Shown in pieces: positions 3,421 to 31,943 of a DNA stretch of 37,850 nt. A program made the position numbers and the translations under genes. The stretch is from Candidatus Peregrinibacteria bacterium (GTDB taxonomy: Bacteria > Patescibacteriota > Gracilibacteria > CAIRYL01 > GCA-016699755), in contig JANTGK010000011.1 in NCBI GenBank assembly GCA_024762935.1, positions 1-37,850 of the forward strand, in the 5' to 3' direction. Each line of letters begins with the position of its first letter. The first letter of the stretch is position 1. The notes beneath the pieces are model-generated. The model saw only the letters and a list, made by a program, of their open reading frames with translations, was not told where the DNA came from and made no database searches.

Positions 3421-3681
3421 ATGGAAAAGAAAATGCAAGAAGTAGGAGTTCGCACAGCGAAGCTCCTTACTAGTCCAGAAAAAATGAACCAAAAGGTTCA
3501 GCAGATGATTGCTGAAGGTATATGTTTCACAGAAGCTGCATGGCATCTTCTCGAAGATTATGCTCGGGTGCAATGGATTGCACCTGCCGACCAACTCAAG
3601 GTTTCTCCGGATGCAAACCTGGAAAAACTTGAGGCACCAAAGGCTTCTGAAAACACCTTATTACTAGTAAAATCCGCCTGA
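3421..3681 (+). CDS. Small protein, paralog family member 2 (86 aa), function unknown
   Basis: Not recognised. The ORF track starts at TTG 3337, but that lies inside the structured leader. ATG 3421, six bases after AAAGGAA, is the better start; the in-frame ATG 3406 has no such site. The peptide shares with member 1 the pattern V-x-x-M ... F-T-x-x-A-W-x-L-L and a C-terminal S-P-D-A-N-L-E-K-L, with one residue of length difference between them. It is soluble and predicted mainly helical, with one Cys. The 28-nt hairpin follows 6 bases after the TGA stop, and member 3 starts 57 bases after that stop, so members 2 and 3 are probably cotranscribed. Confidence 0.65.
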   Translation: MEKKMQEVGVRTAKLLTSPEKMNQKVQQMIAEGICFTEAAWHLLEDYARVQWIAPADQLKVSPDANLEKLEAPKASENTLLLVKSA

Positions 3682-10927: not shown

Positions 10928-13093
10928 GTGATTACCATAAAACAACTCATTCGGGAAATTGCAAAAAAGCATCCTCATATAGATACAAAAGTACTTATGA
11001 GAGCATATGAATATGCCTCTACGAAATGCGGAGGCATGAAGCGTTATAGCGGCGACCCTTGTGTTACTCATCCTCTTTCTACGGTAAAGATACTTATTGA
11101 TTTTACTGAGCAGCAAGAGGTATTTTTGGCAGCACTGCTTCATTATGTTCCTCGAATTTACCCCGATTCCATCGCGGAAATCCGTGAACTTTTTGGAGAA
11201 GAAACATCTTCACTTATTGAAGGGGTAGTACGCCTTGCTCATGTAAAAATAGAAAAAAATAATCGACAGCTTGATTCTCTCAGAAATATGTTTCTGGCGA
11301 TGGCAAGCGATATCCGAGTGGTGATTATTAAGCTCGCATGTCGATTACATAATATGCGGACGCTTCAGTTTCTTCCTCCTGATGCCCAAAAGGACATCGC
11401 ACAAGAAACACTCTATGTATATGCGCCCATAGCGAATCGCCTCGGTATCTATGCCCTGAAAGGACCGCTAGAAGATCTCTCTTTCTTCTATCTTTTTCCA
11501 AAAGAACATCATGATTTGAGTGTACAGATGTCAAAACATGAACCCTATCGTGACCGAGTCATCAAGCAGATTAATGCCACTATTAAAGGTATGATGAAAG
11601 AGCATGGTATTAATGGAGTAGTAAGTGGTCGTATTAAGCACCTCTACAGTATTTATCAAAAGATTAAGCAAAAACGGAAGGAGTCAGTTGATGATGTATA
11701 CGATATTTTTGCTATTCGAATTACTGTTGACACCGTTGCTGACTGCTATGGAATGCTCGGTATCATTCATGAGCATTATGTTCCTATTGGGAATCGTTTT
11801 AAGGACTACATAGCAGTTCCAAAACCAAACGGATACAGAAGTCTCCATACAACAGTTATCGGACTCTCTCGGAGTGCAAAGAAGACATTTCCTGTAGAGA
11901 TTCAAATTCGTACAAAAGAAATGAATCAGGAGGCTGAGTTTGGAATTGCTGCCCACTGGCACTACAAAGAAAAAGCAGGGAGTATTCCAAAAAAATCAGA
12001 CTATCCTCGTGATTGGGTTGATGGTTTAGCCGATATGGAGGATCAGCTAAAGGAGAGTCCTGAGTTTATGGAGGAGGTCAGTGAAGACTCCTTTAATGAC
12101 AGAATATATGCTATCACTCCAAATGGTGAGATTAAGGACTTACCACTTGGAGCTTGCCCTATTGATTTTGCTTTTGCTGTTCATTCAGATATTGGTCGAC
12201 ATATGCGGCTAGCAAAGGTAAATAAACAACTTGTCCCACTTGATTACAAAATTAAAAGTGGAGATATTATTGAAATCATCACCAGTAAAGATGCAAAACC
12301 AAACCAAAATTGGTTGGCTATGTGTACTACCTCAAAGGCAAAACATCATATTCGATCATTTTTAAATAAAAAAGACTCAAACACCCTCATTCGAGAAGGT
12401 CGCGAAATACTCAATAGACTCGCTCTTCAACAACACCTGCCTGAACTGGATCAAACTCTTTCTGTATTAAAACAGTATAAAAATAAAACTCGGAATAAAC
12501 GCCAGAGAGAGGAGCTCCTCTTGCGAGTCGGAAATGGATCTCTTTCGGCGAACAAGGTAATACATGATATTGCTAATAGGTTTCCTGTGAAAAAGAATGA
12601 ATCTCCGCTCGTAAAAAAGAAATCTAAAACAATTTCCAAGAAGGAGAATGAAGAAGTAAAAGTTATTATTGGAGAAAGTCATGATATCCCATTGCGAATG
12701 GGGTCCTGTTGTAAGCCAAAACCAGGAGATAAAATCGTTGGTTTTGTTACTCGCGGTGCACATGTCACTATTCATCGGACTGACTGCAAAACGCTTACCA
12801 AGCTTGACCCTCGCCGGCTTATTAGTGCTCGATTTGAAACAGAAAAAGCACCTAAAAAAACCGTTCTCAGTGTGCACCGAGGCGCCGACCGGGTTGGATT
12901 TGTCCACGATATTCTTACTGTTTTTGCGAATCATAACGCAAATCTTACCGGGTTTTCTTTTGAAGATCGCAGTTCTGTTTCAGCACATATTCTCTTCACC
13001 ATAGAGTTTGATGAATCTGATCAATTGCAGAGAATCATCGAAGACATAAAAAAAGTAGATGGGACGATGAAGGTGAGAGAGAAAAAACAATAA
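10928..13093 (+). CDS. RelA/SpoT homolog, synthetase-active with dead hydrolase site
   Basis: Long RSH enzyme of (p)ppGpp metabolism, 721 aa. The N-terminal HD fold keeps THP but has LLHYVPRIY instead of LLHDVVEDT (Asp to Tyr at residue 73, the Glu-Asp pair to Arg-Ile) and LACRLHN instead of LADRLHN. These are the Mn-binding and catalytic hydrolase residues, so hydrolysis should be lost. The synthetase domain looks intact: RFKDYIAVPKPNGYRSLHT, VEIQIRT and AEFGIAAHWHYKE. TGS (about 385-450), a CCKPKPGDKIVGF Cys-containing domain and a C-terminal ACT domain follow, so ribosome-linked control is likely. GTG start at 10928 is the first in frame; a weak AAGAG precedes it. Divergent from clpC. By activity it is RelA-like, although the lineage may be Rel. 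Confidence 0.9.
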   Translation: MITIKQLIREIAKKHPHIDTKVLMRAYEYASTKCGGMKRYSGDPCVTHPLSTVKILIDFTEQQEVFLAALLHYVPRIYPDSIAEIRELFGEETSSLIEGVVRLAHVKIEKNNRQLDSLRNMFLAMASDIRVVIIKLACRLHNMRTLQFLPPDAQKDIAQETLYVYAPIANRLGIYALKGPLEDLSFFYLFPKEHHDLSVQMSKHEPYRDRVIKQINATIKGMMKEHGINGVVSGRIKHLYSIYQKIKQKRKESVDDVYDIFAIRITVDTVADCYGMLGIIHEHYVPIGNRFKDYIAVPKPNGYRSLHTTVIGLSRSAKKTFPVEIQIRTKEMNQEAEFGIAAHWHYKEKAGSIPKKSDYPRDWVDGLADMEDQLKESPEFMEEVSEDSFNDRIYAITPNGEIKDLPLGACPIDFAFAVHSDIGRHMRLAKVNKQLVPLDYKIKSGDIIEIITSKDAKPNQNWLAMCTTSKAKHHIRSFLNKKDSNTLIREGREILNRLALQQHLPELDQTLSVLKQYKNKTRNKRQREELLLRVGNGSLSANKVIHDIANRFPVKKNESPLVKKKSKTISKKENEEVKVIIGESHDIPLRMGSCCKPKPGDKIVGFVTRGAHVTIHRTDCKTLTKLDPRRLISARFETEKAPKKTVLSVHRGADRVGFVHDILTVFANHNANLTGFSFEDRSSVSAHILFTIEFDESDQLQRIIEDIKKVDGTMKVREKKQ

Positions 13094-13125
13094 TAATTTT
13101 TTTGATATGGGGAGGGAGGAACTTT

Positions 13126-14247
13126 TTAGCTATCCTCTCTTGTAATTTCCACAGCAACGACATCATGTCCATGTGCTGGTTCATATTTCGATCCTTCTGG
13201 TTCATCAAGCCAGAACCAAGAGTTGAGATTCTGTGTTCTATATCCTTGTCTACTGAGTTTTTTTCCAAAAGAGGGATTTATACAATTCAAGTTTCTATTA
13301 CAATCGAGGAGAGGGTGTCCATTTGTATCGACCTCCCTGGTGGATATATCAGTAAAGAGAACAAGCTTTCCATCGGGATTTTTTGTGAACCAATTATCAA
13401 CAACAAGAGGCATAATCTGATCATTATACTCTTTGATGAGTGAAAAAATATCCGCTCTTCCATTCGCTATTTCTTCGTCATCCCATTCTTCTTTCTTTGC
13501 CTGCTGATAGAGTCTCTTCTCTATTTGTTTTTGAAGAGGAAGAAGTGTGGCGGTTTGCACCATAAGTGAAAATCCGAGACCAACCTCAGGAAGATTTTTT
13601 TCTGTGTTAGTAAGTCCACCTTGTATAGCATGTTTCATACGCACTGCTGACATCATTGTATCACGTATGCTGCCTATTATTGTTCCAACATCCTGCTGAT
13701 TACTGTGACTGATTTCATCAATAAGTCCACAAAGGCTGGCAGAAATACCTCGACTAACATCATATTGAATAAATGTCGTATTGAGAGGATCCCCCTGTTG
13801 AGAGAGAGAATAATGTTTCAGGTAATCGTCTACACCTTGCAGTGCTGTTGGAGATATATTTGTAAACAGAAGGTCTTCTGTGTCAGAGAAGAGTTCTAAA
13901 ATCGATGGATTATTCTCGGTATCAGAATTTTTGTTTTTTCCTCTATAATTTAGAGGGATGCATCCATCTTCTAGATCATCCCAAGTTCCTCCTACTATTT
14001 CGACGCCTTCCTTTCTTCGGTCCTCTTCGTTTATAAGAGTTTCTTGAATGACTTCTTTTATTTTTCTGTAGTGACCATGTTCCCATAGTGCCCATTGATC
14101 TTTTCTGTCTGGGGAGTACCGTTCTCCCATATATTCATCATATAGGCCTGCTGCCCTATCAATATTGGGGTCATCCTTAAAAATACGTATAATTCTTGTT
14201 TCATGAGACACATCTCCCGGTAGTGTTTTCTCTTTCTCTGTTATCAT
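13126..14247 (-). CDS. Hypothetical protein (373 aa), between the two RSH genes
   Basis: Not recognised. Soluble, acidic, with no signal peptide or membrane segment. Visible blocks: EYMGERYSPDRKDQWALWEHGHYRK near the N-terminus, a middle helical part (GTIIGSIRDTMMSAVRMKHAIQGGL; LPLQKQIEKRLYQQAKKEEW) and a C-terminal segment rich in Trp and Asn (NLNSWFWLDEPEGSKYEPAH). Codon use and length indicate a real gene. ATG 14247 is used; the bases TATAAT overlap this ATG, so if that hexamer is a true -10 the start would have to lie downstream. It lies on the same strand as, and downstream of, the hydrolase-type RSH gene (49-bp gap), so cotranscription is possible. Function unknown. Confidence 0.75.
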   Translation of the reverse strand: MITEKEKTLPGDVSHETRIIRIFKDDPNIDRAAGLYDEYMGERYSPDRKDQWALWEHGHYRKIKEVIQETLINEEDRRKEGVEIVGGTWDDLEDGCIPLNYRGKNKNSDTENNPSILELFSDTEDLLFTNISPTALQGVDDYLKHYSLSQQGDPLNTTFIQYDVSRGISASLCGLIDEISHSNQQDVGTIIGSIRDTMMSAVRMKHAIQGGLTNTEKNLPEVGLGFSLMVQTATLLPLQKQIEKRLYQQAKKEEWDDEEIANGRADIFSLIKEYNDQIMPLVVDNWFTKNPDGKLVLFTDISTREVDTNGHPLLDCNRNLNCINPSFGKKLSRQGYRTQNLNSWFWLDEPEGSKYEPAHGHDVVAVEITREDS

Positions 14248-14296
14248 TATAGAGCAGTAGATTCGAAGGAGTAAGGTGGTATACTTTATGAGTCTT

Positions 14297-16252
14297 CTAC
14301 TCTCTTGTCAATTCTTTTACCCCATCTATTTCGGAAAGCTCATCGATGATTTCGCTTGTTTGCTTATAATCTTCTGTTTCAATATCCATTTTATACAGAG
14401 CATCTTTTGAAGGGCGCAGTGAGAAGACCTTGAGTTTAGAGACGTTGAGCTTCTTTTCAGCGATTATCTGGAGAATATTTAAGAGCATTCCTGGTTTATC
14501 GATTGATCTGATGTTTAGACTGATAACCATTGTGTCTCTTCTCTGAACATTTGATGTAAAGAAAAAATAAAAGGTATGAAAAAATTCTTTTATAATGCCG
14601 TCCCAAAATGAAAGAAGGGGATTTTCTTTTCGAATATTCATGGTGATTTGGAGATATTTTTGTATAAATTCTTTCGGGCTTATAATTCCTTTTCCAATGT
14701 TGGAAATTATTTCTTCGTACGTATTATCGGGGAATTGAGCAATGATTTTATTTTTTATTTTATCATTTATTATAAAACTTCGTTTCTCTCCTGCTTTTAC
14801 AAATTCAGTAGTAACAGAATCTACCCCCCTCTTGTACAATTCCTTTTTTGAGAGGTGGGAGAGCCATTTAATGATATGATGCTTTGCAATGCTCGTCCGC
14901 GTGTGGTTGAGCCAATATGTTTTCAGATGGGTTTGTTTGCCATAGAGCAGCTCTACAATTTGGCCGTTTTTTAGTGTTAATGTTGGAGGACATAATTTTC
15001 CATCAATCTTCACTGCTTTTAAAAGGTGTGCTTTATCGCAGTCGTACATATAAGCAAAGTCAATGCCGGTTGCATTTTTTGGCAGAGGTACTGTTTTTCC
15101 TTCTTCAGAAAAGATGATGATTTTTTTCTGAAGAATATCTGTCTTCAGGTCACTGAGGTATTGCTGAGAAGTATAATAGTTCTTATCAAGTGCCGTTAAT
15201 GAGAGGTTTATCATCTCCTTTGGGAACTGCTCTGGTGAAAAATAATAGGCACCACACATATTTATCCTTTCCATTGCTTTTGTTTGAATATGGATCTCAC
15301 ATTTTTTTCCAGAATGAATAAATACAGAGGTATGAATCGATCGATATCCATTGTTTTTTGGAAGGGAGATAAAATCTATAAATTCCTTTTCTTTCCAAGA
15401 GTAATTTCCATGAATACCACCAAGGGTCACGTAGCAATCATTAATAGTTTCAGTAGAGATATCTATGAAAAAGGGTTCAATGTGATTAGTTTGAGTAGGT
15501 GCTGTTGAAATGGCCTCTTCTTCAAAAAGCTCACGGGGAGATTTAAAGATAATGGAAGTTTTTGCAATAATTTTCTTTTTAGAAAGCAGGTCTTCGATTT
15601 CTTTTTTGTATTTTTGAATATTTAAAAGATTCTCTTTTTTAAACTTCTCAATATATGTCAGAAAATATTTGTTTTTTTCTGCATGTCGAATGGGGAAACA
15701 ATGTTTCTCAAATATTTGTTTAAATTTCCAGACTCCAAAGAGTTTTGCGAGAGGGTAGTAAATATTCATGGTTTCCTCGGCGATGCGAAGTGCCTTAGCA
15801 TCCCTGAGCTTATCGAGTGTTTCTGTGTTATGGGCTCGATCTGCCAGTTTAATAAGAATCGCTCTTTCATCGGTGATGCCTCCAGAAAACATTTTTCGAA
15901 AAGTAGCTGTTTTATTTTCGTCTGGTGAGCTAAACAGATTTATATTTGAAACCTTGGTAATACTATCTGTTATGGTGGCAATTTTTTTTCCAAACTCCTT
16001 TTCCACATCCTCAAGGGTAACGTCGGTATCTTCAACGGTATCATGAAGAAGAGCAGCAATAAGACTCTCTTCGTCTGCTCCTATCTCTAAGAGTAACATC
16101 GCAACAGCAACCGGATGCGTGACATAATCTTCTCCTGTTTTTCGTTTTTGTCCTTTATGGGCTTTTTCAGCAAATTCATAGGCTCTTCTGATTTCCCCCG
16201 AATGAATATCGGATCTTTTTTTGAGTGCCTTTTCGAGATCTTTGAGGTGCAT
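14297..16252 (-). CDS. RelA/SpoT homolog, hydrolase-active with degenerate synthetase
   Basis: Second long RSH protein, about 651 aa from ATG 16252 (the ORF track extends to TTG 16285, less likely). The HD hydrolase domain is intact: THPVAVAMLL, LLHDTVEDTDV and LIKLADRAHN. The synthetase region is recognisable but damaged. EFIDFISLPKNNGYRSIHT replaces the usual RFKDYIA, and EIHIQTKAMERINMCGAYYF replaces the EIQIRT ... AExGIAAHW core, so GTP/ATP pyrophosphate transfer is unlikely. A TGS-like domain (KNATGIDFAYMYDCDKAHLLKAVKID) and a C-terminal ACT domain (VISLNIRSIDKPGMLLNILQII) follow; the Cys-rich domain of the partner RSH is not seen. It starts 54 bases after the RND pump gene and may be cotranscribed with it. 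Expected role: degrading (p)ppGpp. Confidence 0.88.
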   Translation of the reverse strand: MHLKDLEKALKKRSDIHSGEIRRAYEFAEKAHKGQKRKTGEDYVTHPVAVAMLLLEIGADEESLIAALLHDTVEDTDVTLEDVEKEFGKKIATITDSITKVSNINLFSSPDENKTATFRKMFSGGITDERAILIKLADRAHNTETLDKLRDAKALRIAEETMNIYYPLAKLFGVWKFKQIFEKHCFPIRHAEKNKYFLTYIEKFKKENLLNIQKYKKEIEDLLSKKKIIAKTSIIFKSPRELFEEEAISTAPTQTNHIEPFFIDISTETINDCYVTLGGIHGNYSWKEKEFIDFISLPKNNGYRSIHTSVFIHSGKKCEIHIQTKAMERINMCGAYYFSPEQFPKEMINLSLTALDKNYYTSQQYLSDLKTDILQKKIIIFSEEGKTVPLPKNATGIDFAYMYDCDKAHLLKAVKIDGKLCPPTLTLKNGQIVELLYGKQTHLKTYWLNHTRTSIAKHHIIKWLSHLSKKELYKRGVDSVTTEFVKAGEKRSFIINDKIKNKIIAQFPDNTYEEIISNIGKGIISPKEFIQKYLQITMNIRKENPLLSFWDGIIKEFFHTFYFFFTSNVQRRDTMVISLNIRSIDKPGMLLNILQIIAEKKLNVSKLKVFSLRPSKDALYKMDIETEDYKQTSEIIDELSEIDGVKELTRE

Positions 16253-16306
16253 TTGTCTGATTATCAATGGTACCAGAATTCTCAACTAATGAAAAAATCA
16301 ATTCAT

Positions 16307-19300
16307 TTATGGTGTTATTTTTTTTGTTTTTCGCGACAACCACTGAAAGATCCAGTACAAGATAAGGCTGACAATAATCATAATAAGACCAGGAATGATT
16401 TTTCCGTGCATAAGGGAAATCACGGCATTTGAGGCAACAGCAATCATAAGCATAAACAGAAGGGTTGTACCCTTTTCTTTTTCAAACTGATAAAACGTAA
16501 TAGGGGTAACAAAGAGTGTCAAAAAGGAAGCAACCATAAGCCCAAAAATAATAGTGTAGCTGAGTCCTGCCCAGAATTGATCTTGAAAAATGAGTGGAAT
16601 AATTCCTGCACTAGTGGTGAGGGTGGTGAGAACCACAGGAATAAATCGTGATGTTCCTGCATCTACAATACTCTCTGCGAGGGGGGAATCTTCTTGTGGC
16701 TGTGTTTCCTGAATGTTCTTTTTCGATGTATTATTTTTATTCATTTGATCAATCATAATAATGGCATCATTGACAACAATCCCCGCAAGAGCAATAGCTC
16801 CAAGAATATACGCAAGACTTCTTGGGGTGCCGGTGAGCCAGAGACCGACAGATACTCCTATTTGAGCAAAAAGAATGGTAAATAAAATAAGGAGCGGCTG
16901 AATATATGTATTAAACTGAACCACAAGAATAAGAAACATAAGCAAGAGAGCAATTATGAATCCTTTGCCAAGATCAGCCATAAGATCAGCATTTTCTTCG
17001 TTCTCTCCAGCATTTACAATATCGATACCATCGGGAATGGTGATATTTTCCTTTGTAATCATTTCTAAAAATGCATTGGTGACTTCTTCGGCATTTCCTG
17101 TTTCTGAGAGAAGGCTTGATACCGTAAAAGCAATATCTCCATCGCTTCTTCGGACAGCGGCGAGGGCGTCTCTCCGCTCTATTTTTACGATGTCGCGGAT
17201 GGGAATAGATCCTCCGTTTATTGAGTAGACCCGAATATCTTCGATTGCTTGAAGGGTATCGATATCTTTTTCATTTACTTGTACAACAACATCAATATCT
17301 CTTCCGTCGCGAGTAATGGTCGCAGCAGTTGTTCCCTGAAGAGAGGTTCGGATGATTCCTGGAACAGAATCTGGGTCTATGCCGAGTGAAATGGCCTTTT
17401 GTCTGTCTACTCGAAAACGGAATTCACCTGGAATTTCCTCAATATTATTTTTTACTCCACTTGTTCCAGGAATTTTTCTGAGTTTTTCTGTAAGCTGCAA
17501 AGTAAGTGCTTTGGCATCACTAATTTTTTCTCGGTCACGGGCGACGATTCGGAATCCAACAGGGAATTCACTTGGTGGTCCATTTTGTGCACTTCTAGCA
17601 CGAATTAATGCCATATTCTTTTCTGCAATACTATCAGTTTGCTTAAAAAATTCTTTTTCCAGCTGAACAGAGCTCATCATATTTTTTTCTTTCCTCTTTT
17701 TTTCTGTTAGGAGTTCAATCGAAATATCAGCAGATTTTCCATCTATATGTGTTTCTACAAAGAGCACTTCTGGGTATTGTCTGACAACGTCTTCTACCTC
17801 TTCAGCGACGATGAGTGTCTTTTTGCTTGTTGTTCCTTCGGGCATATCGACACTAATACTCAAAAAAGGTTGGTCGCTCTGAGGAAAGAGCTCAAATTTT
17901 AGAGGAATTTGAAACGATGCGAAGAAGAGGAAAACAACACCTCCTAAAATGGTGAGACGATATACTCTCCGAGAAAGAAATTTTTGGAGAGCTTTTCCAT
18001 ATTTTTTAATAACGGTATTTGTTTTGTCAGTAATGACTTTTCGGAAACATCGAGAGAATATTCGAATGCGAGAAAAGTATTTCATATTTGAGCATTGACT
18101 CTTCTCTGCTGTTTTCCCAACGGTGTGTTCGATTTCATCTATTTTTTTATAATTTGGGAGCAGTTTTGATGCATATACTGGAATAAGGAGAAGAGACACA
18201 GCAAGAGAGGTACCCAAAACGATGATGACAGTAATGGGGATAAAACTCAGGTATTGTCCTAAAATTCCAGAAAGACTGAGAAGAGGAATAAAAACGGCAA
18301 GGGTCGTGAGTGTTCCAGAGAGAAGGGGGCCTCTGTATTCATGAAGAGTTAAGAGTGCCGCCTCACGTCTGCTATACCCTTGTTTGATAAAATGATGTGC
18401 TCCTTCAACGATTACAATCGCAGTATCGACTAAAATTCCCAAAGAGAGAATCATAGAAAAATTGGTCATAAAATTCAGTGTCTTTCCAAAGAGCGCCAAA
18501 ACTCCAATTGCTACCAAAAAGGTTATGGGAATCACAATCGAGGCAACGAGTCCCTCCATCACTCCCACAAAAAAGAAGATGAAGAGCATTACGATGAGTA
18601 CAGACTGCAGCCCACTGGTAATAACTTGCTTGTAATCGTCCCTCATGGTGTCTGCCATTTTTCGGGTGAACTGAATATCCATATTTGAGGGGAGTTTTTC
18701 CGCAATATATTTTTCCACTCTTTTTCTCGTTCGTTCATCAACCTGCAAAATATCACTTTCTGATTTTCGAGAGACAGAAAGCTCTACAGCTGGCTGTGGG
18801 GGTGAATTTTTCTGTTGAAAAGATACTGGGGTAGGTGAATTGATGAACCAAAACAGAAGAACTATAAGTCCGGTACTGAGAGGTACCCAGCGCGGAAGGC
18901 TACAGAGTCCGGCCGTAATGGGAAAAAGCCAAAGAACAAAGAGAACAAGAGTAATAGCAAGGGGAATAAGAACACCCACTTTCAAGTGCGTTACTCCATC
19001 AGAAACATGAGATGCGAAATTCCAGATTTTTTCTCCAAAGGAATACTCCCTCTTTTGTTCTTTTTTCGCCTGTATAAAACGAGTAATAGTAGTATTGGTA
19101 TCTTCTTTACGTTCGTAGACATGTGCGATGTCACCAACAGTAATAAGAGAAGGAATGCCATCTTTTCCAACATCTTTGATAACAATATCTTGTATATCTT
19201 GAGCAGTTTTATGTTTCCCTTCAAATCGAAGAGAATAGTCAAGATTATCGATTTCGAAGTTTCCCAGGGGAGTATCTTTATGAGAGCTTCGAATGGCATT

Positions 19301-19951
19301 TACTACTGTACTTGGTGATAATCCGAGACTCTCAATTTTTTGACGGTCGAGATCAACAGCGATTTCCCTCTCTATCGCACCAACAACGTTTACCTGTGCA
19401 ACATCTGGTATATTTTCGAGTATGCCCTTGAGGTCTTCTGCTGTGTCAGTCAGCTCTAGTGGTGAAGCTGCTCCAGAAATAAGAATGGAAAGGAACGGTT
19501 CGAGAGAACTATCGATTTCTGTTATGTGTGGATCGTTATCGATTTCTGCCGGAAGAAATGGTTTTGCTTCATCGACTTTACTCCGAATATCTCCCATTGC
19601 CTTTGTCATATTTTGACCTGGCTCAAACTCAATAGTAATTGATGAAAGGCTATTTCGAGACACAGAGCTGTACTTATTGATACCACTAACATTCTTAATC
19701 TTCTCTTCAATTTCTTGGGTAATAAGAGTGTCAACGTCAATGGCCGATGCACCGGTAAAACTAGTGTTAATGTTTACCACCCCAAAGGCGATGTATGGAG
19801 CTGATTCTTTGGGAATAGTGATGGCTGAAAGAAGCCCCCATATTGCTGCAGTGAGACCAATCAGAAGAGCGATTTTTGGTCGGCGAATCAAAAAAGCTCC
19901 AGGGCCATGGTAGTTTTTTGCAATGGTTTTGAGGTGACGATCTTTATGCAT
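16307..19951 (-). CDS. RND-family efflux pump with an extra two-helix insertion
   Basis: Proton-driven exporter of the AcrB/ACR_tran type, 1214 aa. TM1 at about 25-46 (PKIALLIGLTAAIWGLLSAI), porter domain with a typical TxFxGASAxDVxxLIT start, TM2-6 from about 448, and a second repeat with TM12 near the C-terminus. In TM4 the usual DD pair reads VDTAIVIVEG: the first Asp (about 509) is kept, the second is Thr. Residues ~297-385 form an insertion before TM2, with two hydrophobic segments (VGVLIPLAITLVLFVLWLF and WVPLSTGLIVLLFWFI) not found in AcrB. The gene follows the adaptor by 14 bases in the tetR-adaptor-pump operon. Substrate unknown; drug, lipid or peptide export are all possible. Confidence 0.92.
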   Translation of the reverse strand: MHKDRHLKTIAKNYHGPGAFLIRRPKIALLIGLTAAIWGLLSAITIPKESAPYIAFGVVNINTSFTGASAIDVDTLITQEIEEKIKNVSGINKYSSVSRNSLSSITIEFEPGQNMTKAMGDIRSKVDEAKPFLPAEIDNDPHITEIDSSLEPFLSILISGAASPLELTDTAEDLKGILENIPDVAQVNVVGAIEREIAVDLDRQKIESLGLSPSTVVNAIRSSHKDTPLGNFEIDNLDYSLRFEGKHKTAQDIQDIVIKDVGKDGIPSLITVGDIAHVYERKEDTNTTITRFIQAKKEQKREYSFGEKIWNFASHVSDGVTHLKVGVLIPLAITLVLFVLWLFPITAGLCSLPRWVPLSTGLIVLLFWFINSPTPVSFQQKNSPPQPAVELSVSRKSESDILQVDERTRKRVEKYIAEKLPSNMDIQFTRKMADTMRDDYKQVITSGLQSVLIVMLFIFFFVGVMEGLVASIVIPITFLVAIGVLALFGKTLNFMTNFSMILSLGILVDTAIVIVEGAHHFIKQGYSRREAALLTLHEYRGPLLSGTLTTLAVFIPLLSLSGILGQYLSFIPITVIIVLGTSLAVSLLLIPVYASKLLPNYKKIDEIEHTVGKTAEKSQCSNMKYFSRIRIFSRCFRKVITDKTNTVIKKYGKALQKFLSRRVYRLTILGGVVFLFFASFQIPLKFELFPQSDQPFLSISVDMPEGTTSKKTLIVAEEVEDVVRQYPEVLFVETHIDGKSADISIELLTEKKRKEKNMMSSVQLEKEFFKQTDSIAEKNMALIRARSAQNGPPSEFPVGFRIVARDREKISDAKALTLQLTEKLRKIPGTSGVKNNIEEIPGEFRFRVDRQKAISLGIDPDSVPGIIRTSLQGTTAATITRDGRDIDVVVQVNEKDIDTLQAIEDIRVYSINGGSIPIRDIVKIERRDALAAVRRSDGDIAFTVSSLLSETGNAEEVTNAFLEMITKENITIPDGIDIVNAGENEENADLMADLGKGFIIALLLMFLILVVQFNTYIQPLLILFTILFAQIGVSVGLWLTGTPRSLAYILGAIALAGIVVNDAIIMIDQMNKNNTSKKNIQETQPQEDSPLAESIVDAGTSRFIPVVLTTLTTSAGIIPLIFQDQFWAGLSYTIIFGLMVASFLTLFVTPITFYQFEKEKGTTLLFMLMIAVASNAVISLMHGKIIPGLIMIIVSLILYWIFQWLSRKTKKITP

Positions 19952-19965
19952 AGAATCAGATATAT

Positions 19966-21885
19966 TTAGAGGTTCTCTTCTGACTCTATTTTTTCTGTTG
20001 TGGTTGGCAAGGCAATGACGTCTCCTTCTTTGAGAGAGAGGACAGGCTCAGGGACAATAAGTTCCCCTTCTGTAAGACCCTCAGTTATTTCAATATCATT
20101 ACCATATCTCTTTCCAAGGGTAACAGACCGTTTCTCAGTCATATATGTCGTTTCATTCCCTTGTTCTCCTTCTCCGACAATAAATACTGTTGGAGGATCT
20201 TGTGAGAGAAGGGCTTTCTGAGGAATAAGAAAAATCTCCTTTTCTGTTGGAAGAGAGAGAGTGGCTGTTGCAAAAATATTTGCAGGAATATTTCGATTGG
20301 TGTTCTGAAAAGATATTTCGATTGTAACTCGTCTCGTCACTTCATCGGCTGTGGGGAATATCTTTGAAACCACTCCCTCGATTTTACCAAAAGCCTCAGC
20401 TGTTACTGTTGCTTTCATTCCTAGCTGGACTCGAGGGAGGTCTTGAATATCAATATCACCTTTTAGAAGAAGTGAGTCTACTTGGGCAATGGTAAAAAGA
20501 GGAGATCCAATCGCAACAGTATCTCCTGTCTCTACTTGTTTTTTTATAACAACCCCATTCACTGGTGCAATGACATTCAGTTTTGATGACTGAATCAGCG
20601 CTTTATTATAGGCATTTCTTGCAGAATCACGGTTTGCAGTGGCCTGCTGGATTGAAATTTCATTCTGTTTTTGAGTAAGGGAGAGTTGTGTAGAAGCACT
20701 TTCGAGAGTGTTTTTAGCAATTGATATTTGATTTTCTGTTCCAACCTTTGACACATCTCCTCCACTTTTGATCTGTTCGAGATTTTTCTCTGATTGTGTA
20801 AGCTGTTCTTCTGCCTGTTGTAGGGCTAATTCAGCATTTCTTATTTGTTGCGGCTTATTGATATAAAAATCTTTTTCTTGCTGAATAATGGCGGTAACTG
20901 ATGAAATAGTGCCTTCTACTGTCGATCGAGAGGCCGCAATGCTTGTTCGGAATGATGAGAGCTCTGCATCAGTAAAATTTCCACCAGAAATCGTTTTTTT
21001 CAGCATGACATCAATACTCTGAAGAGTTGTTCGAATATCATCTGAAAGTCCAAGGATATCTTCAGGAGAGACAGACTTTGGGTCTGATATATGCTGCTTC
21101 TCAAGGGTCTCAAAAGTATTCCAGAGTGTCCGAAATAGATTTTCACTATCTATTTTTGTCTGCGGATCTTTGAAGCCAAGATATACTTCGAAGCGATCAT
21201 TTTCTTTTCGAGTCTCTATATTTACCCCCATTATTTCATCAGCACTCTGAAGGACGCTCCTATACGTGCTCATGGCATTACTAATGACATTTTCCTTATT
21301 TTCGAGGATGTCCTGCTCTCTCTTGTTGAGATTCTCTTTTGTCTCATCAATTGTTTTTTTTGCATTATCGAGGTTGATTTTTGCCAACTCGACACTACTT
21401 TCTGCAGCACCTACTTGTGCCTCAACAGAGGATCCTGTTGAATTATCTGTTCGTTTGGCATTGGAGAGATTCTCTTCAGCCTGTACAACAGCTATCCGGG
21501 CACTCTCCTGATTTTGTTCTGCTTGTTTTCGAGTTAATTCCAATGCTCGATTCGCATCTGATAATGCTATTTGGGCACCACGAAGATCAACGTGCAAGAG
21601 GTTTGTATCTTCAAAAAATTGGAGGAGTGGTTCACCAGCACGAACAATATCGCCTTCCGAAGCATAAATTTCTCGAATAACACCAGATACCTCTGCAGCA
21701 ACAAGAGATTGAAATTTTGGCTGTAATGTTCCAGATATTGTAAGAGTTGGAGTAACAGAGGTTCTCTCAATAGCAAGAAGAGGGATGTTTTTTGCTTTGA
21801 TTTCAGGTGTTTCTTCTGTTGCATCTTTTTGACACCCTGTTGTTACAGCAAGAAGAAAGAATGAGAGGATTAAGATTTTTTTCAT
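19966..21885 (-). CDS. RND adaptor (HlyD/AcrA family) lipoprotein, unusually long
   Basis: Periplasmic-type membrane fusion subunit of the neighbouring pump, 639 aa against about 370-420 normally. Signal peptide with a lipobox-like VTTGC (Cys 18). The lipoyl half-motifs are at VSGVIREIYASEGDIVRAGEPLL (about 65-90) and LNVIAPVNGVVIKKQVETGDTVAIGSPLF (about 450). The long stretch between them contains repeated Gln/Glu/Asn-rich heptads predicted to form a very long coiled-coil hairpin (QAEENLSNAKR; LALQQAEEQLTQSEKNLEQI). The beta-barrel and membrane-proximal domains follow. No TolC gene is present, as expected if the cell lacks an outer membrane; the long hairpin might instead reach across the wall or S-layer (inference). 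Start overlaps the tetR stop by 4 bases. Confidence 0.9.
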   Translation of the reverse strand: MKKILILSFFLLAVTTGCQKDATEETPEIKAKNIPLLAIERTSVTPTLTISGTLQPKFQSLVAAEVSGVIREIYASEGDIVRAGEPLLQFFEDTNLLHVDLRGAQIALSDANRALELTRKQAEQNQESARIAVVQAEENLSNAKRTDNSTGSSVEAQVGAAESSVELAKINLDNAKKTIDETKENLNKREQDILENKENVISNAMSTYRSVLQSADEIMGVNIETRKENDRFEVYLGFKDPQTKIDSENLFRTLWNTFETLEKQHISDPKSVSPEDILGLSDDIRTTLQSIDVMLKKTISGGNFTDAELSSFRTSIAASRSTVEGTISSVTAIIQQEKDFYINKPQQIRNAELALQQAEEQLTQSEKNLEQIKSGGDVSKVGTENQISIAKNTLESASTQLSLTQKQNEISIQQATANRDSARNAYNKALIQSSKLNVIAPVNGVVIKKQVETGDTVAIGSPLFTIAQVDSLLLKGDIDIQDLPRVQLGMKATVTAEAFGKIEGVVSKIFPTADEVTRRVTIEISFQNTNRNIPANIFATATLSLPTEKEIFLIPQKALLSQDPPTVFIVGEGEQGNETTYMTEKRSVTLGKRYGNDIEITEGLTEGELIVPEPVLSLKEGDVIALPTTTEKIESEENL

Positions 21886-22466
21886 TTTTTTAGAAGAGAG
21901 AGAAGGTGATCACAGAGTTCTTTTGGGTTCCAAGGGCACTCTTTTTTCCCTGTTGGGTCTGGTATTGTAAAACATAAACCAAGAAAATCAAGGAAACCAA
22001 GAATGATTTGTGCAGATTTTCCTGGATCTTTTTCTTGAAAGATTCCCTTTTGAGCCCCCTCAGAGACAATTTCTTGAAATGTCATAAGCACTTTATTGCG
22101 TTCTTCAACGAGCATGGCAAACAGGTCTGCATCATTTGCAAAGATTTGCCGAAAAATATATTGGGAAATACCATGTTCTTTTTGCATGTCTTGCAACATA
22201 TGCGTAATCATTTTTGTGAGTTTTTTATCTGCCGGTAAATCTTCTTCAGCTATTTTTTGGAGGACACGATTTCTCTCTGCCGGAAGTGATTGCATGACAG
22301 CGGTAATAAGGTCCTTCTTGTTTTGGAAAAAATAATAGAGAGCAGATTTTGTTACCCCACATTTTTTGGCAATTCCGCTCATAGAAATATTGCCCTTCCC
22401 CTCAGCAAGAAGTAGTTTTGTAGCCTCAAGAATACTCTGACGTGTATTTTTTTCTGAAGATGTCAT
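21882..22466 (-). CDS. TetR/AcrR-family repressor of the efflux operon
   Basis: 194-aa regulator. The N-terminal helix-turn-helix is typical (ISMSGIAKKCGVTKSALYYFFQNKKDLITAV, about residues 27-57); the C-terminal ligand domain is variable, with a Cys and several Phe near its end (LGFLDFLGLCF). First gene of the operon with adaptor and pump, translationally coupled to the adaptor (4-base overlap). A perfect 22-bp palindrome lies 31 bases upstream of its ATG, over the -10 region, so it most likely represses itself and the pump and releases on binding an exported compound. Confidence 0.93.
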   Translation of the reverse strand: MTSSEKNTRQSILEATKLLLAEGKGNISMSGIAKKCGVTKSALYYFFQNKKDLITAVMQSLPAERNRVLQKIAEEDLPADKKLTKMITHMLQDMQKEHGISQYIFRQIFANDADLFAMLVEERNKVLMTFQEIVSEGAQKGIFQEKDPGKSAQIILGFLDFLGLCFTIPDPTGKKECPWNPKELCDHLLSLLKK

Positions 22467-31708: not shown

Positions 31709-31784
31709 GTTCCCGTAGCTCAGTGGATAGAGCGTTCGGTTGCGGTCCGAAAGGCCACAGGTTCGACTCCTGTCGGGAACGCCA
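31709..31784 (+). tRNA. tRNA-Arg, anticodon GCG
   Basis: Complete cloverleaf. Acceptor GTTCCCG/CGGGAAC, D stem GCTC/GAGC, anticodon stem TTCGG/CCGAA with loop TTGCGGT, T stem ACAGG/CCTGT with loop TTCGACT, discriminator G, and encoded CCA. A20 in the D loop (AGTGGATA) and C35 are the arginine identity elements. Anticodon GCG reads CGC and, by wobble, CGU. Most bacteria use ACG with inosine here. Confidence 0.93.
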
Positions 31785-31866
31785 GTTTTTATAAAAAGAG
31801 TTTTTCCCTGTTGCTTTTGGTATTTATTTTTCTGTAGACTGGATACTCGAAGCCGTAGATTCGCCT

Positions 31867-31943
31867 GCCCGCGTAGCTCAATTGGATAGAGTACCTGGCT
31901 TCGAACCAGTAGGTTGGGGGTTCGAGTCCCTCCGCGGGCGCCA
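31867..31943 (+). tRNA. tRNA-Arg, anticodon UCG
   Basis: Acceptor GCCCGCG/CGCGGGC, D stem GCTC/GAGT, anticodon loop CTTCGAA giving anticodon TCG, T stem GGGGG/CCCTC, discriminator G and encoded CCA. The first pair of the anticodon stem (C27-T43) is a mismatch. A20 and C35 support arginine. It lies 82 bases after the GCG tRNA gene and reads CGA and CGG, codons used often in this window. Confidence 0.92.

Follow-up and report, generated by a model that had tools for sequence, protein, structure and literature searches.

The complete division of (p)ppGpp metabolism between two long RelA/SpoT homologs (RSHs), a synthetase-only RelA ([hS]) and a hydrolase-only SpoT ([Hs]), is known from the Moraxellaceae (PMC3153485, PMC9974481), and in the literature surveyed it is described for this family only. 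Other arrangements of long RSHs include the synthetase-only RelA and bifunctional SpoT ([HS]) of Escherichia coli and other beta- and gammaproteobacteria, the single bifunctional Rel typified by Bacillus subtilis, and the RshB of Bacteroidia, a second long RSH with a divergent HD domain that arose by lineage-specific duplication. RshB is classed as [HS], and no hydrolase-only partner is reported for it (PMC3153485). Here we describe two long RSHs, RSH1 and RSH2, encoded in a stretch of 37,850 nucleotides (the window; positions 1 to 37,850 of contig JANTGK010000011.1, assembly GCA_024762935.1) of a Candidatus Peregrinibacteria bacterium belonging to the candidate phyla radiation (CPR), whose genome is 1.38 Mb in size and 96% complete. 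We consider it highly probable that they form a reciprocally subfunctionalised pair comprising a RelA-like synthetase and a hydrolase resembling the SpoT of Acinetobacter. As judged from residues and trees, an [hS] and [Hs] split in reduced, mostly uncultured CPR bacteria, made from their own paralogs and evolved more than once in the class, is new here; a search of titles and abstracts, with subscription papers outside its scope, found no literature on this split in CPR, Patescibacteria or Gracilibacteria.

The two genes are convergent and lie about 1.2 kb apart, and both open reading frames (ORFs) are intact and full length without internal stops (table 1), upholding an earlier sequence-only reading of the locus as two long RSHs with complementary decay. 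An alternative TTG start for RSH2 at 16285, upstream, would extend the protein to 662 aa. RSH1 has the domain order pseudo-HD, SYNTH, TGS, HEL, RIS/ZFD and ACT/RRM and matches TIGR00691 over profile positions 1-686 of 687 (633.8 bits), while RSH2 has the order HD, pseudo-SYNTH, TGS-like, HEL and ACT. Both therefore possess the HD, SYNTH region, TGS and ACT, and are not of the single-domain small alarmone hydrolase or synthetase type. The proteins are 24% identical over 644 aligned residues. No third long RSH was found in the genome by protein search with RSH1, and the three TIGR00691 stretches in this genome all fall within RSH1 or RSH2, with no separate small hydrolase seen.

Catalytic residues were compared by alignment to B. 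subtilis Rel, whose numbering is used throughout, and to the RelA and SpoT of E. coli. The hydrolase set (R44, H53, H77, D78, E81, D82, D144 and N148) reads RHHYRICN in RSH1, where the HD and ADR motifs are replaced by LLHYVPRIY and LACRLHN exactly as first read. The claimed hydrolase decay is borne out by the loss of D78, E81, D82 and D144, with the correction that R44, H53, H77 and N148 are kept. D78 and D144 are metal ligands of Rel HD domains, and RSH1 lacks these two of the four ligands. Its synthetase set (R241, K243, K251, D264, R269, K297, Y308, H312, E324 and Q326) reads RKKDRKYHEQ, and the core is intact at 10 of 10 residues, as had been proposed. The RSH1 motif is of the RXKD type (RFKD), and the acidic EXDD of RelA (EFDD in E. 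coli) is absent. In RSH2, the hydrolase set is complete (RHHDEDDN, 8 of 8), in agreement with the reported LLHDTVEDT and LIKLADRAHN motifs, and the synthetase set reads IKEEDIYHEH, with only four of ten residues kept. In the model-checked register, R241, K251, R269, R295, K297, R328 and H343 are replaced, removing most of the nucleotide-binding basic residues, R295 and R328 included. Pfam HD_4 and RelA_SpoT both match RSH1 at full length (RelA_SpoT at 138.6 bits), whereas RelA_SpoT matches RSH2 only over profile positions 31-101 of 113, at 53.6 bits.

Table 1. Features of the RSH locus (window coordinates; residue numbers of B. subtilis Rel).
Feature	Coordinates	Strand	Details
RSH1	10928..13093	+	GTG 10928 to TAA 13093, 721 aa; clade-A long RSH, type [hS]
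RSH1 degraded HDxxED motif	11135..11161	+	LLHYVPRIY; D78Y, E81R, D82I
RSH1 degraded ADRxHN motif	11333..11353	+	LACRLHN; D144C, metal ligand
RSH1 synthetase core, intact	11627..11968	+	GRIKHLYSIYQK, VYDIFAIRI, RFKDYIAVPKPNGYRSLHTTV, VEIQIRT, EFGIAAHWHYK
RSH1 TGS with conserved tRNA-CCA-contacting His	12167..12187	+	FAFAVHS; role of His from PMC9974481
RSH1 zinc-finger/RIS cysteines and histidine	12701..12787	+	CC...H...C
Orphan ORF between RSH1 and RSH2	13126..14247	-	373 aa; no Pfam/NCBIfam family
RSH2	14297..16252	-	ATG 16252 to TAG 14297, 651 aa; clade-B long RSH, type [Hs]
RSH2 TGS	15038..15058	-	FAYMYDC; Asp in place of tRNA-sensing His
RSH2 pseudo-synthetase	15281..15550	-	IFKSPRELFEEEAIS, FFIDIS, EFIDFIS, CEIHIQT; fold of N-terminal domains retained
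RSH2 intact ADRxHN motif	15827..15847	-	LADRAHN
RSH2 intact HDxxED motif	16025..16051	-	LLHDTVEDT

The regulatory halves differ in a corresponding manner. RSH1 retains the TGS histidine, the C, C, H and C of the zinc finger, and the ACT domain; in RSH2 no ZFD residues aligned and Pfam gave no RIS match. Deacylated tRNA is recognised at its CCA end by the TGS histidine, which is lost (Ser) in the hydrolase-only SpoT of Acinetobacter baumannii and present in the bifunctional SpoT of E. coli (PMC9974481). By these features the C-terminal domains of RSH1 look built for the ribosome, whereas those of RSH2 do not. AlphaFold models (mean pLDDT 82 for RSH1 and 79 for RSH2) place the HD and SYNTH elements at matching residue numbers in both proteins, and the best Foldseek matches by E-value are ribosome-bound E. 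coli RelA for RSH1 and A. baumannii SpoT (PDB 7QPR) for RSH2. The N-terminal domains of RSH2 superpose on the catalytic domains of Staphylococcus aureus Rel with a TM score of 0.89 by target (rmsd 2.5). The Core linker comprises 43 residues in RSH1 and 35 in RSH2, consistent in direction with the class as a whole (medians of 41 in [hS], 43 in [HS] and 32 in [Hs] copies); in the single models it forms ordered helices in RSH2 and is disordered, with pLDDT <50, in RSH1. The Core is likewise short and ordered in A. baumannii SpoT when compared with RelA, a difference in the same direction (PMC9974481).

The Moraxellaceae pair, represented by A. baumannii (PDB 7QPR), resembles RSH1 and RSH2 in combining a synthetase-only protein with a hydrolase-only one that carries a pseudo-SYNTH, and its SpoT resembles RSH2 in having lost the TGS histidine and perhaps in its shorter Core, ordered in the one model of RSH2. 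It differs in that A. baumannii SpoT keeps the zinc finger that RSH2 has lost and that Moraxellaceae RelA has EXDD rather than RXKD; the two pairs are also not orthologous by our trees (which leave out Moraxellaceae SpoT itself), and here the split recurred several times within one class. The E. coli pair is similar in consisting of two long RSHs, one with a dead HD and with ribosome-type C-terminal domains in the synthetase, but its SpoT keeps all synthetase residues and the TGS histidine and RSH2 keeps neither. Of the gammaproteobacterial RelA and SpoT to which the locus was earlier likened, those of the Moraxellaceae are a closer match than those of E. coli, whose SpoT stays bifunctional. 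Domain order and fold are shared with single Rel proteins (B. subtilis Rel, and those of G001 and the single-copy families of the class), the inferred ancestral state, from which RSH1 departs in its hydrolase residues and RSH2 in its synthetase residues, so that neither is bifunctional by residues. The trees described below place the two proteins outside RelA and SpoT, in keeping with the RXKD of RSH1 and the lack of a zinc finger in RSH2.

In 60 fully searched genomes, drawn from 30 families of one CPR class, we located and fetched the long RSHs and classified them by residues. This class is probably Gracilibacteria/Peregrinibacteria; TGA is a sense codon in the RSH genes of several families, which fits the class Gracilibacteria in GTDB. 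Nineteen genomes have one bifunctional long RSH only, and such single copies keep nearly all the catalytic residues checked. Another 19 have only [hS] and [Hs] copies and no bifunctional one; they belong to six families (f1, f2, f5, f6, f18 and f31), so the residue states of RSH1 and RSH2 are found together in other genomes of the class. A further 10 combine an [hS] copy with a bifunctional one, and the remainder are mixtures. Labels in two genomes (G005 and G008) rest on fragments. A long synthetase is present in every genome (0 of 60 without), and an [hS] copy without a long hydrolase was seen in three: G009 and G024, which carry stand-alone HD proteins, and G002, where a contig end truncates the second RSH. 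When the labels were reassigned at random among proteins in 10,000 shuffles, a procedure that ignores kinship, the genomes lacking one activity averaged 18.2 (minimum 9) versus the three observed. In family f16 a genome may carry as many as three long RSHs, each bifunctional by its residues (L073/L133/L045 in G178; L044/L131/L094 in G055). Among 78 genomes of the phylum, those outside the class have mostly one long RSH or none, and 19 of 73 other Patescibacteria sampled had no match at all; a scan of named genomes with RSH2 gave six loci only, mostly distant.

Of the [hS] copies, 28/33 keep the TGS histidine, as do 46/51 of the [HS] copies (74/84 together); it is lost in 28/31 [Hs] copies (Fisher p 3e-15 for [Hs] versus all others, with no correction for kinship). 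The residues of the zinc finger persist in 32/33 [hS] copies and in none of the 31 [Hs] copies.

Trees of the synthetase-TGS region and of the hydrolase region resolve two paralogous long-RSH lineages in the class, A and B. Clade A (support 100/100 on columns excluding the hydrolase domain) comprises RSH1, most [hS] copies and, for many families, the single bifunctional Rel; it keeps the TGS histidine and zinc finger, and its members are bifunctional or [hS]. Clade B comprises RSH2, bifunctional second copies and [Hs] copies, and has mostly lost the zinc finger, which is gone already in most of its bifunctional copies. RSH2 is sister to a hydrolase-only clade of family f5 (99/90) and sits on a long branch in the HD tree, whereas RSH1 pairs with its counterpart in G001, a genome of its own family (93/48), in which the HD, ED and ADR motifs are intact and RSH2 was not found. 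E. coli RelA and SpoT fall outside clade A and away from RSH2. This supports the independent subfunctionalisation suggested from the sequence, for which a phylogeny with CPR sequences was the proposed check: RSH1 and RSH2 each group with paralogs from their own class. The hydrolase label requires eight changes within clade A (7-8 over bootstraps) and the [Hs] label five within clade B, four of the latter being forced by well-supported branches. Single origins were rejected for both [hS] (approximately unbiased (AU) test, p 2.8e-5) and [Hs] (AU p 9e-9). On this evidence the split is a recurrent pattern across the class, of which RSH1 and RSH2 are one instance, and is not private to this genome. 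With the root among A, B and other Patescibacteria unsure, the trees are compatible with an origin of clade B either in a duplication basal to the class or in an early transfer. The distribution of the TGS histidine and zinc finger suggests an order of events in which clade B left the ribosome and then lost synthesis, after which clade A could lose hydrolysis. Some long f2 branches (L015-L017 with Microscillaceae, L078 with E. coli RelA) are probably placed by long-branch error and were not used.

The G001 ortholog of RSH1 (L179, ~3560-3600) is frameshifted at the D264 motif (GATGATCTATGATATA), giving ORFs of 257 and 462 aa; this may be an assembly error, a pseudogene or recoding. The same genome, which is without RSH2, encodes a 304-aa protein (L178) whose synthetase looks intact; it has no C-terminal domains and, of the HD, a vestigial remnant at most.

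Several observations weigh against a clean reciprocal split. The synthetase decay read from the sequence of RSH2 is correct in the motifs it named, but the site is not wholly erased: N306, Y308, H312 and E324 are kept and Glu stands in the D264 register. Because of the retained E324 and this Glu, residual synthetase activity is conceivable, and trace activity may be compatible with the sequence. Foldseek superposes the full-length chains poorly (TM ~0.4), a good fit being confined to the catalytic halves. Grouping RSH1 with the [hS] proteins of f2 and f5 is equally good (AU p 0.47), so that its hydrolase loss is not established as demonstrably its own event and may be shared with them, yet G001 of the same family has an intact HD set. 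Certain labels are borderline, with L169, L108 and L172 being [hS] by the ED pair alone and L157 [Hs] by conservative changes. Finally, loss of the zinc finger is shared by most of clade B, including bifunctional copies, and the TGS histidine and zinc-finger counts are drawn from related sequences and are not independent.

The retained residues (4 of 8 in the RSH1 hydrolase site; E324, H312, Y308 and the Glu for D264 in RSH2) could mean that both enzymes are still bifunctional, with the missing residues supplied from shifted positions or functionally replaced and the alignments misleading. We regard this as quite improbable. As the boundaries of the structural elements agree through HD and SYNTH in the models, the catalytic residues show no register shift, and no substitutes at shifted positions, the observation that would have told against the sequence-only reading, are apparent in the sequence either. 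Moreover, RSH1 is without the metal ligands D78 and D144 and the ED pair, and RSH2 is without seven residues (R241, K251, R269, R295, K297, R328 and H343) that single-copy long RSHs nearly always have. That either gene is decaying as a pseudogene, or stems from a chimeric assembly, is very unlikely: these are metagenome assemblies and the G001 ortholog is frameshifted, but both ORFs are full length without stops, motif loss is limited to one domain, with all residues checked intact in the other, and the same [hS] and [Hs] states occur in other genomes.

An improbable but more conceivable alternative is that the in vivo substrate of RSH2 is a different nucleotide, for instance (p)ppApp or NADPH, on which certain small HD hydrolases act, with ppGpp cleared otherwise. 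The HD-fold relatives of RSH2 in the PDB include Mesh1 with NADPH and a (p)ppApp hydrolase, and the long HD branch of RSH2 would fit a change of substrate. All eight catalytic residues are intact in RSH2, however, none of the three TIGR00691 stretches of the genome is a separate small hydrolase, and the same pairing recurs in other families. The shared functional split and the Foldseek matches to RelA and SpoT might also be taken to indicate true orthologs of the proteobacterial proteins gained by transfer. This is extremely unlikely given that RSH1 lies among proteins of its own class in clade A, with E. coli RelA and SpoT elsewhere in the tree, that RSH2 clusters with the hydrolase-only copies found in its class, and that RSH1 has RXKD and not the EXDD of RelA.

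For the reciprocally subfunctionalised pair, we predict activities and ribosome dependence from the residue and domain states, tree positions and co-occurrence of the two proteins. RSH1 would be the alarm, a ribosome-associated (p)ppGpp synthetase active on starved ribosomes, sensing deacylated tRNA via its TGS histidine and docking via the zinc finger and RRM, with its catalytically dead HD retained for regulation, the role described in RelA. RSH2 would be the eraser, a (p)ppGpp hydrolase whose pseudo-synthetase is dead and whose HD site is held active by the Core, TGS and pseudo-SYNTH as in A. baumannii SpoT, without ribosome input. Because it has neither the tRNA-sensing histidine nor the zinc finger, RSH2 would not be switched by starved ribosomes and may remove the alarmone continuously, or when its ACT/TGS part reads some other signal. 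The pair would descend from the paralogous lineages A and B, with the hydrolase lost repeatedly in A and the synthetase repeatedly in B.

Many clade-B relatives, unlike RSH2, which ends without a hydrophobic membrane part, have about four hydrophobic helices after the ACT domain. These are predicted to be transmembrane and occur in both [HS] and [Hs] copies (L007, from a Peregrinibacteria record, L096, L115, L126, L157, L054, L153 and others). The [Hs] copies of families f2, f5, f6, f7 and f31 have a C-terminal part of 6-14 helices, examples being L134-L138, L142-L145 and L174 (913-1146 aa). Three of these, L138 (58 bits), L142 (53 bits) and L174, match Pfam EamA (drug/metabolite transporter) above the cut-off, a transporter-like domain being fused to a predicted alarmone hydrolase. 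Among 33 [hS] copies, such helices were found in one, the odd f15 protein L172, which lies outside clade A. We found no mention of transmembrane RSHs in the 2011 survey of the RSH family.

Directly upstream of RSH2 on the same strand (16307-22466) are genes for an RND efflux pump (1214 aa, ACR_tran), an HlyD-like membrane fusion protein and a TetR regulator, with which RSH2 could be co-transcribed. The orphan ORF between the RSH genes has no relatives in the 10 nearest genomes and apparently stands outside the RSH system, as far as can be told. A conserved chromosomal pairing of the two RSH genes was rejected, as elsewhere they are on different contigs or hundreds of kb apart. The window also encodes a Fic/DOC-family protein of 455 aa (895-2262) and two adjoining tRNA-Arg genes with anticodons gcg and tcg (31709-31943).

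A broader interpretation, to which we give an even chance, is that clade B represents a second stringent-factor lineage freed from ribosome control. Synthesis would have been passed repeatedly to the ribosome-bound clade A, making clade B a dedicated hydrolase that in several families became fused to membrane or EamA-transporter-like domains, possibly coupling removal of the alarmone with the envelope or nutrient uptake, with RSH1 and RSH2 as a soluble end product. The recurrent splits in this class provide natural replicates for asking why the division is favoured, in which order the halves decay, and whether loss of the TGS histidine regularly accompanies loss of synthesis. Small as they are, the genomes of this class have kept the stringent response and elaborated it, unlike those other Patescibacteria in which no RSH match was found.

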